From the IMG/VR virus record IMGVR_UViG_3300032323_000830, positions 1 to 26,082 of that record: a DNA stretch of 26,082 bases; one strand, written 5' to 3'. The notes below the pieces were generated by a model, which worked only from the letters and a program-made list of their open reading frames with translations, was not told the DNA's origin and made no database searches. Below are positions 3,559-26,082 of this stretch, in pieces. The position numbers were made by a program, and so were the translations under genes. Origin of the DNA: a virus. Each line of letters starts with the position of its first letter. Within the stretch, counting starts at the first letter, position 1.

Positions 3559-4179
3559 ATGAATATTGCGATTTTCATACATCAGCCGGTATGTGCAGTA
3601 GATTCCGCAAACGGAATAATCAAATCCCTTTCACCTCAACACTCTTTTAAACTGTTCTCTCAAGATGAAGTTGAATCTACATTTTTTGATGATGTAGACT
3701 GTGTATGCTTTCCGGGAGGGTTCGGTGATGCAGATAGATTTGATAGACTACTAAAATGGAACTATGACAGCATCGTAGATTTTGTAAAAGGTGGTGGCAA
3801 ATATCTAGGCGTCTGTATGGGAGCTTATTGGGCAGGCCCGCACTATTTTGATATACTAGACAATATAGAAGTTGAACAGTATATTCGAAGACCTAATACC
3901 TGCACACGTAGACCTCACCCAAAAGCCATGCCTGTTCAATGGTTAGACAATAGCGAAAGGATGTATTTCTATGACGGTTGTTGTTTTGTTGGCAATGATA
4001 TGGACGTTGTGGCTCGTTACAGCAACAGTGATCCTATGGCGATTATACAAAGGAATGTTGGACTAATAGGCTGTCATCTAGAAAGTGAAGCTTGGTGGTA
4101 CAATAAAAAATACCTCCAGCCGCATTGGCATGGAGGTATTCATTATCCGCTACTGCTTGATTTTGTTAATTCGATTTAA
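3559..4179 (+). CDS. Class I glutamine-amidotransferase-like protein (biotin-protein-ligase N-terminal type)
   Basis: A flavodoxin-like amidotransferase fold. The N-terminus MNIAIFIHQPVCAVDS is followed by C-F-P-G-G-F-G-D-A-D and the nucleophile elbow G-V-C-M-G-A-Y-W-A-G, with the presumed catalytic Cys at residue 86. This arrangement is typical of the BPL_N family, proteins related to the N-terminal domain of eukaryotic biotin ligases and of unknown substrate. An in-frame GTG at 3481 would add 26 residues of low quality, so I chose the ATG at 3559; neither start has a good Shine-Dalgarno sequence. The 3' end overlaps the convergent TerC-like gene by 14 bases and encodes that gene's terminator on the opposite strand. 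Confidence 0.75.
   Translation: MNIAIFIHQPVCAVDSANGIIKSLSPQHSFKLFSQDEVESTFFDDVDCVCFPGGFGDADRFDRLLKWNYDSIVDFVKGGGKYLGVCMGAYWAGPHYFDILDNIEVEQYIRRPNTCTRRPHPKAMPVQWLDNSERMYFYDGCCFVGNDMDVVARYSNSDPMAIIQRNVGLIGCHLESEAWWYNKKYLQPHWHGGIHYPLLLDFVNSI
4103..4140 (-). terminator. Rho-independent terminator of the HAD/TerC unit, inside the convergent gene
   Basis: On the minus strand AATACCTCCA pairs with TGGAGGTATT (10 bp, 12-base loop) and is followed directly by a T-run (A4105-4110 on the plus strand). It lies 26 bases beyond the TerC stop but within the coding end of the plus-strand amidotransferase-like gene. Confidence 0.75.
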
Positions 4180-4858
4180 ACAAAAACTTTTTGTGTAAGT
4201 GCAATCTTGCTTTATTATATTGAACAGCAGTAATAACTAGAGCAACTGCCCAAGGTACAATGGCTGCTGCCCACGGAACAAGTCCTGCCCACCATGCGGC
4301 CATCAATGGTTCTTTCATTAACATCAGCATGGCAACGGCAAACAATACAAATGATCCTATGAATACTGCGTCAGGCCAACGTTGCAGGATCTTACTGACC
4401 ATAGTAGCACCAAACAAGATGATTGGCACTGAGATTAACAAGCCGGCAATGATAAGAACAAAGTTTCCATTAGCGGCTGCGGCAATACCTAGTGCGTTGT
4501 CTATGCCCATTACAGCATCAGCAACTACAATAGTTGATATGGCACCCCAAAAGGTATCTTTGGCTTCGATATTGTGTTCTCCGTGATCGAATACTAGTTT
4601 CCATCCAATCCATATTAGGGCCGCGGCTCCAATAGCACGTAGGCCTGGAATCATTAGTAGGTATGTTAGTGCGGCTACTGATACAAAACGTATAGCAATA
4701 GCACCAAAAGTACCCCAAAAGATTGCTTTCTTACGTAGTTCGGGCGGAAGTTTGTTTGCAGCCATTCCAATAACAAGAGCGTTATCACCGGCTAATACGA
4801 TGTCTATCAGGATGATAGCGAGAAATGCCCAAAGGGCTTGAAGCGTGAAGAGTTCCAT
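4166..4858 (-). CDS. TerC-family integral membrane metal transporter
   Basis: A multi-pass inner-membrane protein of 230 residues, the usual size of short TerC proteins, with about seven hydrophobic segments. The two family signature repeats are intact: D-I-V-L-A-G-D-N-A-L-V-I-G (Asp19, Asp25, Asn26) and V-A-D-A-V-M-G-I-D-N-A-L (Asp114, Asp120, Asn121). The acidic residues are the presumed metal ligands. Family members include Mn(II) exporters such as MeeF/MeeY-type proteins and E. coli Alx. A Shine-Dalgarno sequence (AAGGA) sits 6-7 bases before the ATG. A yybP-ykoY-like manganese riboswitch and a late-promoter octamer lie directly upstream, so manganese export is the best functional inference. 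The transporter is probably host-derived. Confidence 0.92.
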   Translation of the reverse strand: MELFTLQALWAFLAIILIDIVLAGDNALVIGMAANKLPPELRKKAIFWGTFGAIAIRFVSVAALTYLLMIPGLRAIGAAALIWIGWKLVFDHGEHNIEAKDTFWGAISTIVVADAVMGIDNALGIAAAANGNFVLIIAGLLISVPIILFGATMVSKILQRWPDAVFIGSFVLFAVAMLMLMKEPLMAAWWAGLVPWAAAIVPWAVALVITAVQYNKARLHLHKKFLFKSN

Positions 4859-5633: not shown

Positions 5634-6290
5634 ATGTTAGAAACGATTTGCGATATATTAGTAGAAGCATATAAACGAAATTGGATTACCAGCAGAGATG
5701 GCAATATCTCAATCCGTCATCACGATAGAGATCATTTTTATGTTACACCCAGCGGTGTGCGTAAGCAGACAATGCAGCCAGATCAGTTTAAGAAAGTCAA
5801 AATCAATAAATGGATCAACAGCGGCAATGGCGCTGGAGTATTTGGCTACGGTTGGGAAGAAATGCCCTACAGTGACATTTCAATAGGTCTAAAGCCCACA
5901 GGCGAAATGCCCCTGCATTTTGGACTGCAAAAAGAAATACACAAAGATGAAGTGCGTGTGGTCACACACATACATCCTACCTATATCGTTGCAGCCATGC
6001 ATGCTGGTATTGAGCTTTCGGAGTTAGCCAAAGACTTCCCAGAACTCAGTCGCTATACAAGAGTAGCGCCTAATGTAGGAGATGTACCCCCTATCAGTCA
6101 AGAGCTAGGAGATCAGTGCCATGAAAAGTTGGGTTTAAATCACAGCACAGGTGAGATTAAGTATGATATCGTAGGAATAAAAGGCCACGGGGTTGTGGCT
6201 ATAGACTCTACGCCATGGCGTAGTTTTGAACATATAGAGCGTCTAGAACATATCTGTAAAATAGTTCTAGCCTCAGGGAACTTTAAATGA
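5634..6290 (+). CDS. Class II aldolase/adducin-family protein
   Basis: A zinc-dependent aldolase or dehydratase fold of 218 residues, as in fuculose-phosphate aldolase and the methionine-salvage dehydratase MtnB. Family motifs in order are S-R-D-G-N-I-S-I-R at 20-28, Y-V-T-P-S-G at 36-41, P-T-G-E-M-P-L-H at 88-95 with catalytic Glu91, zinc ligands H112-I-H114, and K-G-H-G-V-V-A with the third zinc ligand His185. The substrate is unknown. The Shine-Dalgarno AAAGGA and a CATAAATA octamer lie upstream. Its stop overlaps the start of the desaturase gene (ATGA), so the two enzymes are probably coexpressed. The pair may form a metabolic module, but no shared pathway is evident. Confidence 0.88.
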   Translation: MLETICDILVEAYKRNWITSRDGNISIRHHDRDHFYVTPSGVRKQTMQPDQFKKVKINKWINSGNGAGVFGYGWEEMPYSDISIGLKPTGEMPLHFGLQKEIHKDEVRVVTHIHPTYIVAAMHAGIELSELAKDFPELSRYTRVAPNVGDVPPISQELGDQCHEKLGLNHSTGEIKYDIVGIKGHGVVAIDSTPWRSFEHIERLEHICKIVLASGNFK

Positions 6291-6997
6291 TAGAACTAAT
6301 TTATACGTTAATAGTAACACACATTACCATAATATGTGTCACTGTTTACCTTCACAGACACCAAGCACACAGAGGAATAGAACTCCATCCCGTGCTAAGC
6401 CATTTTATGAGATTCTGGTTATGGCTTACAACTGGTATGACTACTAAACAATGGGTAGCAGTACATCGTAAACATCATCAAAACACCGATGTCGAAGGTG
6501 ATCCTCACAGTCCGCATGTATTCGGAATCTGGCAGTTGATCTTTGGTGGAGTTAAGTTTTATAATCGTGCCGGCAGTGATGCGCACATGGTTATGAAATA
6601 CGGTATGGGTACTCCTAAAGACTGGATTGAACGTAAACTTTATACACCCCACCACCGCCTGGGCATTCTCCTAATGTTGATCATAGATCTTTTGTTATTT
6701 GGGCCTTGGGGATTTCTAGTGTGGGGTGTCCAAATGCTATGGATACCTTTCTGGGCCGCAGGCTTTATCAACGGCGTTGGACACTGGTGGGGTTATCGCA
6801 ACGGAGAAACCAAAGATCATTCACACAATGTAAGCCCTTGGGGAATATTAATCGGTGGCGAAGAGCTACACAACAATCATCATTTAGATCCTGCTAATCC
6901 TAAACTGAGCCGTCGTTGGTTCGAGTTTGACATCGGTTGGATGTATATCAAGATCTTAGAATTCTTTAGACTAGCTAAGATAAGAAACGCAATATAA
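6287..6997 (+). CDS. Membrane fatty-acid desaturase (delta-9/stearoyl-CoA type)
   Basis: A di-iron integral-membrane desaturase of 236 residues, short but complete. All three histidine boxes are present: H23-R-H-Q-A-H28, H60-R-K-H-H64 and E-E-L-H195-N-N-H-H199. An extra conserved-type N-G-V-G-H-W-W-G has His166. Hydrophobic segments at 1-20, about 38-50, 125-145 and 146-165 fit the four-helix topology. It would introduce a double bond in acyl chains and so increase membrane fluidity. The gene is coupled to the aldolase-like gene and ends in a strong terminator. Desaturases are known from marine T4-like phages; here it adds to other lipid-related genes in the window. Confidence 0.92.
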   Translation: MIELIYTLIVTHITIICVTVYLHRHQAHRGIELHPVLSHFMRFWLWLTTGMTTKQWVAVHRKHHQNTDVEGDPHSPHVFGIWQLIFGGVKFYNRAGSDAHMVMKYGMGTPKDWIERKLYTPHHRLGILLMLIIDLLLFGPWGFLVWGVQMLWIPFWAAGFINGVGHWWGYRNGETKDHSHNVSPWGILIGGEELHNNHHLDPANPKLSRRWFEFDIGWMYIKILEFFRLAKIRNAI

Positions 6998-21647: not shown

Positions 21648-22058
21648 ATGAAAAAATTATTTTGGAACATTTTAGGATTCTTAAGTTTGGGCATGGCCTA
21701 TATTGGAATCATTACTCCTGGCGTACCCTATAGTATCTTTGTGGTATTCGCTGCTTACTGTTTTAGCAAAGGCTCAGAGCGTATGCATCGTTGGATCTAC
21801 AATCACAAAATCTTTGGACCTTTCTTAACTAACTGGAATGAACGACGTGTGTTCCCACAAAAGATGCGTTATCTAATGTTAGGTATGATGACATTGAGTT
21901 TATGTATTATGTTTTTCACAGGAGTGAAACCTATAGGAATCTTATCTACCGCAGTGTTCATGGCTCTAGTGGCTGTATGGGCCTGGCGCTTTCCAAACTC
22001 TGTAGAAGAACACGATCAAAGAAAACAACAGGGGCGAAAGATTGGATGGTTTAAATGA
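21648..22058 (+). CDS. DUF454/YbaN-family inner-membrane protein
   Basis: 136 residues that start directly at the PAAR stop. Hydrophobic segments are at about 5-30 and in a pair at about 73-93 and 96-112. The YbaN hallmark order is present: G-x-x-T-P-G-V-P-Y near 22-28, A-A-Y-C-F-S-K-G-S-E-R-M-H-R-W near 35-49, then N-H-K-I-F-G-P-F-L-T-N-W. The family's function is unknown. The C-terminus is basic and cytoplasmic. Finding this host-like membrane protein between a spike tip and oxygenases is unusual. The stop overlaps the next start (ATGA). Confidence 0.88.
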   Translation: MKKLFWNILGFLSLGMAYIGIITPGVPYSIFVVFAAYCFSKGSERMHRWIYNHKIFGPFLTNWNERRVFPQKMRYLMLGMMTLSLCIMFFTGVKPIGILSTAVFMALVAVWAWRFPNSVEEHDQRKQQGRKIGWFK

Positions 22059-22687
22059 ACTACACTATTCACAAACTTTTTCCCACCCCTGTCTATCATT
22101 CTACAATACCCGCACTTGATCCTATAACTCTACACAAGTTAATGAACAACGAGTGGGTGGCGCCTGGATATCTTGGTGCCAATCGCACACACAAAGAAAG
22201 CGCAAATAGAAAAATACTGCATAGACCCGAACTGTCTAACCTAAAGAAGATCGTACAAAAACACATAGATTTTTATGTATTTGACGTGTTGGGTGTAGCG
22301 CCAGGGCTGTCATGGGAGATATCAACTAGTTGGGTCAACCAAAATAGCAAAGGTGACTTCCATGATAATCATTATCACACCAACAGCATGATCAGCGGAA
22401 CCCTTTACCTCAAAGTTCCAGATCAAAGCAGTTCTATATTTTTTCATCGCGACAAAGGCCATGAAAATTTATGGAGTACTCTATTAATAGAGTTTGAAAA
22501 GGACAACGAATACAATGTTGCTAGCATAGGACTTGCTCCTAACGATTTTGATATCCTTATCTTTCCTTCTATATTAGCTCACAGCGTTACTACCAACACC
22601 AACGATGAAGATAGATTCAGTTTAGCTTTCAACGTTTGGCCTAGGGGAACTATCGGAGAGGGCGGCAACTGCGAACTCACGCTATGA
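22055..22687 (+). CDS. 2OG-Fe(II) oxygenase family protein, first of a tandem pair
   Basis: 210 residues of the double-stranded beta-helix fold. The start F-P-T-P-V-Y is typical of the family. The iron-site region is H103-D-N-H106-Y-H108-T-N-S-M-I-S-G-T-L-Y, and the distal ligand His176 lies in F-P-S-I-L-A-H-S-V, followed by Arg187 (D-R-F-S-L-A-F-N), the usual 2-oxoglutarate anchor. This pattern (H-x-H-x-N-S-x-I-S-G ... F-P-S-x-L-x-H-S-V ... R-x-S-x-A-F-N) is the one annotated as putative 2OG-Fe(II) oxygenase in many marine phages. The substrate is unknown and may be protein or nucleic acid. ATGA overlap with the next paralogue. Confidence 0.88.
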   Translation: MNYTIHKLFPTPVYHSTIPALDPITLHKLMNNEWVAPGYLGANRTHKESANRKILHRPELSNLKKIVQKHIDFYVFDVLGVAPGLSWEISTSWVNQNSKGDFHDNHYHTNSMISGTLYLKVPDQSSSIFFHRDKGHENLWSTLLIEFEKDNEYNVASIGLAPNDFDILIFPSILAHSVTTNTNDEDRFSLAFNVWPRGTIGEGGNCELTL

Positions 22688-23319
22688 AGGATTTTTCTGT
22701 AACTCCTTTGTTTGCTGTTCCTTTGTATAGAGCTGTGCTAGGTCCAGTAGATAGCAAAACAAAAAACTACATTGAAACTTTAAAGTTTGAAAGAATGCCT
22801 TCGGACAACGGAGACTATACTTCAGATAAAACTGTTCTAGAAGATTCGAATCTTAAAGATTTAAAAAATAAAATACAAGATCACGTTGATTTTTTTCTCT
22901 ACGAAGTTTTAGACTGCAAGCAAACTCAAAAGTTTGAAATACAAAACAGTTGGATCAATAAACACCAGCAACATGATTTTGCCGGATCCCATAATCACAC
23001 TAACAGCCTAGTCAGTGGAGTCTATTATATCTCAGTTGAAGATCAAAGTGGTGCCATACAGTTTGAAAAGAACAAAAGCTACTTTAATCTATGGCCAGAT
23101 TTGATTGACATAGAGTTTAACAACGATCTAGAGAAGACTAATATATTCAATGCCCAGGCTTGGGCGATAACACCTACAAATGGAGACATAGTTTTGTTTC
23201 CTTCTCATCTACATCATTCTGTTTATGAAAACCATTCAGAAAGATTAAGATACAGCCTAGCTTTTAACGTATTCCCTAGAGGAGTACTGGGCGGCAAACT
23301 CAATACCTTGAGGTTATAA
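22684..23319 (+). CDS. 2OG-Fe(II) oxygenase family protein, second of a tandem pair
   Basis: 211 residues, clearly paralogous to the preceding gene. Shared landmarks are T-P-L-F-A-V-P-L-Y at the start, H103-N-H105-T-N-S-L-V-S-G-V-Y-Y, F-P-S-H-L-H-H178-S-V and R189-Y-S-L-A-F-N-V-F-P-R-G. The active-site residues are retained, so both copies look functional and may differ in substrate. The sequence outside the core is only moderately similar, so the duplication is old or the copies were acquired separately. The stop overlaps the next start. Confidence 0.88.
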   Translation: MKDFSVTPLFAVPLYRAVLGPVDSKTKNYIETLKFERMPSDNGDYTSDKTVLEDSNLKDLKNKIQDHVDFFLYEVLDCKQTQKFEIQNSWINKHQQHDFAGSHNHTNSLVSGVYYISVEDQSGAIQFEKNKSYFNLWPDLIDIEFNNDLEKTNIFNAQAWAITPTNGDIVLFPSHLHHSVYENHSERLRYSLAFNVFPRGVLGGKLNTLRL

Positions 23320-25802: not shown

Positions 25803-25831
25803 AATAGGATCTTGACTGATCCTATTTTTTT
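25803..25831 (+). terminator. Rho-independent terminator after agt
   Basis: AATAGGATC pairs with GATCCTATT (9 bp, TTGACT loop), followed by a run of T. The loop doubles as the -35 element of the next promoter. Confidence 0.9.
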
Positions 25832-25840
25832 CTGTATTAT
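25812..25840 (+). promoter_or_regulatory. Sigma70 promoter of the tmRNA gene, nested in the terminator
   Basis: TTGACT, a 17-base spacer and TATTAT. The -35 is the terminator loop and the spacer contains its 3' stem and T-run. The predicted start near 25847 is about 40 bases before the tmRNA acceptor piece. Confidence 0.6.
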
Positions 25841-25889
25841 TTAAGTACATTCCATCTATAAAAGATGAGTGTTAAATAACTATATTGCT

Positions 25890-25947
25890 GTATGAAGCAG
25901 ACCCAAAAGGGTTCTGGACGCGGGTTCGACTCCCGCCTGGTCCACCA
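25890..25947 (+). ncRNA. ssrA: Permuted tmRNA, acceptor (3') piece with encoded CCA
   Basis: The piece ends in a T-arm (GCGGG-TTCGACT-CCCGC, 25920-25936), then CTGGTCC, discriminator A and CCA at 25945-25947. GGAC before the T-stem and GTTC/CGA in the loop are standard for tmRNA 3' ends. A hairpin with an AAAA loop (25898-25916) precedes it. No matching 5' acceptor strand lies upstream, which excludes an ordinary tRNA. The complement GGGCCAG occurs instead at 26035, downstream, giving a perfect seven-pair stem with G3-U70, the alanine identity element. This order, 3' piece before 5' piece, defines the circularly permuted two-piece tmRNA. The 5' end of the piece is approximate. Confidence 0.82.
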
Positions 25948-25961
25948 TAAAGGAGATTAGT

Positions 25962-26033
25962 ATGGATAACGATTATAGTACACTAGTTGGCTTTATTGTT
26001 GTTATCATTGTATTTGCTCTAGTCCTTTTATGA
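25962..26033 (+). CDS. 23-residue membrane peptide ORF inside the tmRNA intervening segment
   Basis: AAGGAG at 25949-25954 lies 7 bases before the ATG. The product MDNDYSTLVGFIVVIIVFAL ends V-L-L and is a short polar head followed by one hydrophobic helix. The stop ends one base before the first base of the tmRNA coding piece. It is short, but the Shine-Dalgarno sequence and the coherent membrane helix favour translation. It resembles small single-helix phage peptides in form only. If the precursor RNA is processed, the excised segment would itself be the mRNA. Confidence 0.5.
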   Translation: MDNDYSTLVGFIVVIIVFALVLL

Positions 26034-26034
26034 T

Positions 26035-26082
26035 GGGCCAGTCATGGTTTCGACAGGGTCAAGAGTAGGCGAGTGGACAGCA
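26035..26082 (+). ncRNA. ssrA: Permuted tmRNA, coding (5') piece, cut by window end
   Basis: GGGCCAG followed by TCATGGTTTCGACAGG is the standard tmRNA 5' end, where the GG-x-TTCGACAGG block forms the reduced D-loop. The tag reading frame should follow beyond the window, so its peptide cannot be read. It pairs with the acceptor piece that lies 87 bases upstream. Confidence 0.85.

Follow-up and report, generated by a model that had tools for sequence, protein, structure and literature searches.

The spacer that separates the two pieces of circularly permuted tmRNA genes in phages probably provides a slot from which small accessory genes are expressed. The window, by which we mean the whole 26,082-nucleotide stretch of viral DNA analysed here, carries one such gene at its end, and the explanation we favor with good confidence is a permuted tmRNA of a T4-like phage, probably of the betaproteobacterial type, with a spacer carrying a small protein gene. 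Sequence comparison supports this explanation through the architecture of the gene, nested open reading frames (ORFs) with protein-like evolution, shared spacer ends, and different inserts in near-identical tmRNA genes.

A permuted tmRNA gene at the contig end

Positions 25886-26082 on the plus strand match Rfam family RF04321 (tmRNA_permuted) with 75.3 bits (E 5e-13) against a gathering score of 47, spanning model positions 1-133 of 213 with the 3′ side cut by the contig end. The region is laid out as follows, with the basis of each assignment in brackets:

25803..25832, +, terminator-like hairpin with a T-run, between the glycosyltransferase gene and the tmRNA (consensus scan)
25886..25947, +, acceptor (3′) piece of the tmRNA, first in gene order, 5′ limit approximate (RF04321 match, sequence, fold)
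25920-25936, +, T-arm GCGGGTTCGACTCCCGC (sequence)
25937-25943, +, acceptor 3′ strand CTGGTCC (sequence)
25944, +, discriminator A (sequence)
25945-25947, +, CCA (sequence)
25948..26034, +, intervening segment, 87 nt (boundaries set by the tmRNA halves)
25948-25953 and 26025-26030, +, stem TAAAGG/CTTTTA at the spacer ends (fold; kept among relatives)
25955-25960 and 26019-26024, +, stem GATTAG/CTAGTC at the spacer ends, one bulged A (fold; kept among relatives)
25950..25955, +, Shine-Dalgarno sequence AAGGAG, 6 nt before the ATG and within the 5′ stem arm (sequence; same place in relatives)
25962..26033, +, nested ORF of 23 amino acids, MDNDYSTLVGFIVVIIVFALVLL, with one predicted membrane span (sequence; also in L038 and six further contigs)
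26035..26082, +, tmRNA 5′ piece, GGGCCAGTCATGGTTTCGAC..., with G1 at 26035, ending with the contig before the tag (RF04321 match)

The acceptor stem joins GGGCCAG at 26035-26041 to CTGGTCC at 25937-25943 with seven of seven pairs, the third pair (G26037-U25941) is the G3-U70 alanine identity pair, and the CCA at 25945-25947 completes the perfect acceptor end that the earlier note had described. A second inter-piece helix appears in the fold between UGCUGU (25886-25891) and ACAGCA (26077-26082). The contig end is a genuine circularly permuted tmRNA gene cut off by the end of the contig, and the earlier note's reading of a two-piece phage tmRNA is borne out by piece order, stems, the RF04321 match, and complete tagged relatives in the same order. 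The start which that note placed at 25812 is too early and falls within the terminator-like hairpin and T-run. ARAGORN, which it had suggested, called no tmRNA on the window, as expected because the gene is incomplete: the window's record is a 26082-base contig, and the tag region falls beyond its end. A promoter scan was uninformative, with 1 found against 1.0 expected.

The same two pieces occur in complete relatives, of which L038, the nearest, is 94.6% identical over 148 nt and L070 and L110 are about 82% identical over 203 nt. Since piece order, stems, model fit, and complete relatives all keep the permuted order, a second 3′ end in standard order downstream of the window, raised earlier as a way in which the upstream piece might prove a remnant, appears unlikely. 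The phage two-piece tmRNA presumably acts in trans-translation as usual. The group I intron form of tmRNA was considered and rejected, with the T-arm at 25920-25936 unbroken and no intron family among the Rfam matches.

A different view would make the locus a host-captured tmRNA remnant or an integration attachment site without function for the phage. tmRNA genes are indeed common integration sites (PMC11915505) and ssrA fragments are known in prophages (PMC9004378), but the acceptor and second helices are intact in the window, many relatives have complete tagged genes, and a general reading of the window's ORF list recognised no integrase. Moreover, the exact phage 5′-piece pattern preceded by TGA occurred in 0 of 84,980 species genomes scanned, and a slightly looser form of the 5′ piece occurs in at least 120 viral stretches. 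A remnant or attachment site is, on this evidence as a whole, very improbable. A looser pattern used on genomes returned mostly standard tmRNAs, and the exact pattern of the window's own 5′ piece gave no match in the viral contigs searched.

Lineage, tags and phage identity

The earlier note had named the alphaproteobacterial and cyanobacterial models; most relatives tested scored best with RF01850 (beta_tmRNA). Among five complete relatives run against Rfam, L129, L155, L130, and L038 passed RF01850 (138, 111, 111, and 102 bits) and the fifth, L145, passed alpha_tmRNA. The truncated window itself has RF04321 as its sole Rfam tmRNA match, and its tmRNA is probably of betaproteobacterial type. 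The tags of L491 and L022 read as ANAANDEVFALAA, and a short tag is likely in the window too because its 5′ piece has one mismatch in 48 nt with these two genes.

Across phage-type genes, ARAGORN read the usual 10-aa tag in 49 of 97 and long tags of 23-33 aa in 35 of 97 (L139, L155, L038, L066, L108, and others), at least one of which looks spurious. Many long tags have a conserved core such as ANADTFDFSAMSFTGNTV followed by the normal ...FALAA end, and the extended phage tag may have a function of its own.

The window phage looks T4-like. The closest matches to its ribonucleotide reductase, at 54-59% identity, come from Xanthomonas phage X1 and Stenotrophomonas phages, and its genes also include an exonuclease, a tail-spike, a PAAR protein, and a glycosyltransferase. 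Judged by eye from translations, two neighbouring genes of ~210 aa at 22055-23319 look related and are possibly a duplicated oxygenase-like pair, and 4166-4858 (-) and 6287-6997 (+), which would be unusual phage cargo, resemble a TerC-like membrane protein and a fatty-acid desaturase. CUA-anticodon (amber-reading) tRNAs are present in relatives L129 (1681-1756), L122 (1087-1161), and L490 (12221-12295); the one in L129 sits near the tmRNA, and stop-codon suppression is possible.

An open reading frame nested between the tmRNA pieces

The segment at 25948-26034 reads TAAAGGAGATTAGT-ATG...TTA-TGA-T and, by analogy, is expected to be missing from the mature tmRNA. Its hydrophobic ORF starts with the ATG at 25962; a TGA at 26031-26033 closes it, with a single base left between this stop and the 5′ piece. 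Shine-Dalgarno sequence and ATG thus lie within about 15 nt of the CCA and the frame is open to the 5′ piece, the arrangement by which we recognise a slot. Taken alone, this ORF is not significant, as half of end-preserving shuffles stay open. The closest pair, the window and L038 ORFs, differ by 2 synonymous and 3 non-synonymous changes, and the whole transmembrane ORF family of the window shows 24/4/36 changes at the three codon positions. A collection-wide scan with the window ORF pattern returned nine stretches, each of which is a tmRNA slot, and tblastn of the 23-aa ORF against isolated phages gave no match, as expected for such a short query. We place moderate confidence in translation of the window's own nested ORF; that its membrane peptide is a small membrane-acting accessory protein is a guess.

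A survey of spacers in related phage loci

Related permuted tmRNAs were gathered from viral contigs by acceptor pattern, glycosyltransferase relatives, 5′-piece pattern, ORF pattern, and a Shine-Dalgarno-type spacer pattern, and 169 distinct genes were kept in which five or more acceptor pairs support the spacer boundaries, some of the loci overlapping on one contig. The pattern combining Shine-Dalgarno sequence and ATG selects for these two elements, and its loci and the ORF-pattern loci were excluded from the frequency estimate. Within the resulting sample, restricted to the phage-type 5′ piece and leaving out isolates and all loci fetched by spacer content, 34 of 104 phage genes (about a third) have a spacer-filling Shine-Dalgarno ORF and about two thirds have none. 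A first ORF list (70 of 169) included false positives (for example L255, L204, L111, L115, L022, and L075), and a stricter Shine-Dalgarno set of 57 was used in its place. Over all loci, these 57 ORF-bearing genes encode 54 proteins in 29 families, 22-133 aa in length. Spacers with a Shine-Dalgarno sequence and an early ATG are open to the end in 57 of 61 cases, where dinucleotide shuffles of the inner spacer part predict 7.4, the counts from related genes not being independent. Both coding and non-coding spacers commonly end in TGAT, and stop-codon position is therefore not independent evidence.

In bacteria, the spacer between permuted tmRNA halves is discarded RNA. Betaproteobacterial permuted tmRNAs (RF01850/RF04321) resemble the phage genes in piece order, acceptor and second helices, and tags of the AN...LAA kind, and in some bacteria (L465 and L466) they share the TAAG...CTTATGAT spacer ends with phages. 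Spacers in seven bacterial permuted genes, those of L465 and L466 among them, from the order to which the Accumulibacter genome L385 belongs measure about 4-45 nt and contain no ORF, whereas phage spacers that contain one can exceed 400 nt. The phage slot looks like an expanded bacterial hairpin.

Among isolated phages, a nucleotide search matched the acceptor region alone. ARAGORN found permuted tmRNAs in five isolates, L411 (XacN1), L412 (DLP_6), L413 (PA_L9), L414 (QDWS595), and L415 (QDWS359), whose records have no tmRNA feature annotated in the region viewed. No spacer-filling ORF was found in four of the five, with spacers of about 30-114 nt. Spacers of L155, L156, L111, L237, L224, and L240 are non-coding and reduced-tRNA-like, with a T-arm-like GGTTCGA loop and a D-arm-like stem between the terminal arms.

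Nested ORFs show protein-like evolution and include known domains

The nested ORF of L231 encodes a thioredoxin (PF00085, 4e-21) and that of L145 a DUF2061 protein (PF09834, 4e-21), both over the cut-off, L145 having a divergent 5′ piece and lying outside the set of 57. Changes at the codon positions of nested ORFs number 50/19/101 in 14 pairs, mostly at third positions, and Ka/Ks ranges from 0.04 to 0.58. A rough filter indicated relatives outside a recognised slot, within the fetched loci, for the nested proteins of L216, L130, L228, and L145. L006, L054, L066, and L072 carry a cysteine-rich nested ORF (MKYTALCPSCF...) that lacks a spacer stop and runs 27 nt into the 5′ piece; run-on ORFs as a group stop 27-52 nt inside this piece, and their full translation would therefore be possible from the unprocessed precursor only. 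An acetyltransferase fold for a 122-aa nested family was retained as a lead only, the structure model having low confidence (pLDDT 63) and the best PDB matches being acetyltransferases, none of them below E 0.001.

These observations weigh against the reading that the segment is a structural spacer only, a hairpin presenting ends for processing, with the window ORF a chance reading of an AU-rich spacer. Such a reading accommodates the non-significance of the window ORF by itself, the absence of an ORF from most sampled phage spacers, the TGAT end common to both classes, and a terminal stem that is also present in non-coding spacers. It leaves unexplained, however, why openness across the set lies far above the shuffles (57 of 61 against 7.4), why third-position bias extends to the window's own family (24/4/36), and why thioredoxin and DUF2061 domains and ORFs of up to 133 codons occupy the same slot, and we consider it unlikely. 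Protein-coding slots as a class in phage permuted tmRNAs are supported with high confidence at the sequence level.

Cassettes differ between near-identical tmRNA genes

Between related phages the segment varies, and the tmRNA pieces that flank it stay intact. In 141 pairs, which are not independent, identity is at least 90% upstream and at least 88% downstream with spacer identity below 60%. L066 and L101, from different samples, have flanks identical at 599 of 600 and 600 of 600 positions, and their spacers hold a cysteine-rich ORF in one and a membrane ORF in the other. L044, with a 53-nt non-coding spacer, and L280, with a member of the window's ORF family, are identical without interruption over 65 upstream and 123 downstream nucleotides. 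The earlier note had offered the locus as a marker of integration or recombination; we saw no support for a role in integration, and the variable part is the segment between intact tmRNA pieces.

ORFs would be swapped between fixed slot ends; homologous recombination within the conserved halves of the tmRNA is the simplest route and suffices as an explanation. Phage morons and integron gene cassettes are likewise small accessory genes that are traded at a single place between shared flanks. The likeness is one of operation only, and the phage slot differs in that we identified no recombination site or integrase. A single site, many inserts, and exchange between near-identical genes might also be expected of selfish passengers that target the slot as homing genes do in group I introns, and endonuclease genes do occur in tmRNA group I introns (PMC11915505). 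Yet Pfam found no endonuclease domain among 17 nested proteins scanned, and the inserts are diverse, mostly short membrane or unknown proteins, making selfish passengers a very unlikely source of the nested ORFs.

A terminal stem joins the spacer ends

The terminal stem is common to coding and non-coding segments, and in the window the arm that includes the Shine-Dalgarno sequence is paired with the four sense codons before the stop. When the first 18 nt of each spacer are matched with its own last 20 nt, pairing is stronger than in all 2000 partner permutations, with -12.9 kcal/mol for own ends versus -5.9 for permuted ends in spacers without an ORF and -8.5 versus -6.4 kcal/mol in ORF-bearing spacers. 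Weaker stems in ORF-bearing spacers would be expected if ribosomes must enter, and a Shine-Dalgarno sequence within the stem could block translation. Nested proteins share C-termini (12 end in VSL and 8 in VLL), which fits with a stem arm that pairs with the last sense codons.

Relation to known tmRNA genes

Phage-borne permuted tmRNA is as such already published, for phage Melnitz and others, and its novelty had been overstated in the earlier note: PMC9004378 already counts 53 two-piece tmRNAs in phages, and 50 of these come from marine or aquatic samples. Methylophilales phage Melnitz and Pelagibacter phage Mosig likewise represent aquatic myovirus-like phages with a permuted two-piece tmRNA; the Melnitz gene differs in that it is reported to be of alphaproteobacterial type with a glutamine riboswitch, and the available text of that paper reports no protein gene between its pieces (PMC9004378). 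A 2025 survey lists 97,179 tmRNAs, of which 11,946 are permuted and 79 come from phages (PMC11915505). Intervening sequences housing a tRNA-Ala or a repetitive element are reported there, and these share with the phage slot an extra element between the pieces, but they are single cases and not proteins, whereas the phage slot is recurrent and protein-coding (PMC11915505). The tmRNA group I intron with a homing endonuclease also has a protein gene within the tmRNA gene, but there a self-splicing intron lies in the T-loop, whereas the phage slot is the natural gap between the pieces, with no intron and no nuclease found (PMC11915505). Protein genes in permuted tmRNA spacers do not appear in the available text of the survey (PMC11915505), a targeted search of open-licence literature returned no report of them, and we accordingly found the spacer as a swap slot for small protein genes undescribed in that literature.

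A proposed mechanism and its implications

The slot ends are shared in this phage group: at the 5′ side a stem arm including the Shine-Dalgarno sequence, and at the 3′ side the other stem arm with the stop TGA and one U. If maturation follows established tRNA processing, RNase P would release the 5′ piece with its start at 26035, and the acceptor piece would be trimmed to its CCA at 25947 by 3′ processing. The 87-nt RNA cut out between them would have a Shine-Dalgarno sequence at its 5′ end, an ORF, and a stop at its 3′ end, in effect a short mRNA. The terminal stem may stack on the acceptor stem and aid processing. Translation of the nested ORF would proceed from the precursor or the excised segment; run-on ORFs would need the precursor, and their translation and tmRNA maturation would compete. 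Nested products would be accessory phage proteins made whenever the tmRNA is transcribed, in the window a one-span membrane peptide.

More tentatively, the precursor may be a dual-product RNA in which the stem is both a processing aid and a Shine-Dalgarno lock, with maturation and nested translation interdependent. If this doubtful switch is real, ribosome supply in infection would decide how far rescue of ribosomes is favored over the nested accessory protein.

Nested genes would give the permuted tmRNA spacer a second use, and competition between processing and translation becomes directly testable. Small phage proteins encoded inside a tmRNA gene may be missed by gene callers, and an RNA stem would shape the C-terminal codons of unrelated proteins. 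Phages would be using a structural RNA gene as a place into which protein genes are inserted like cassettes.
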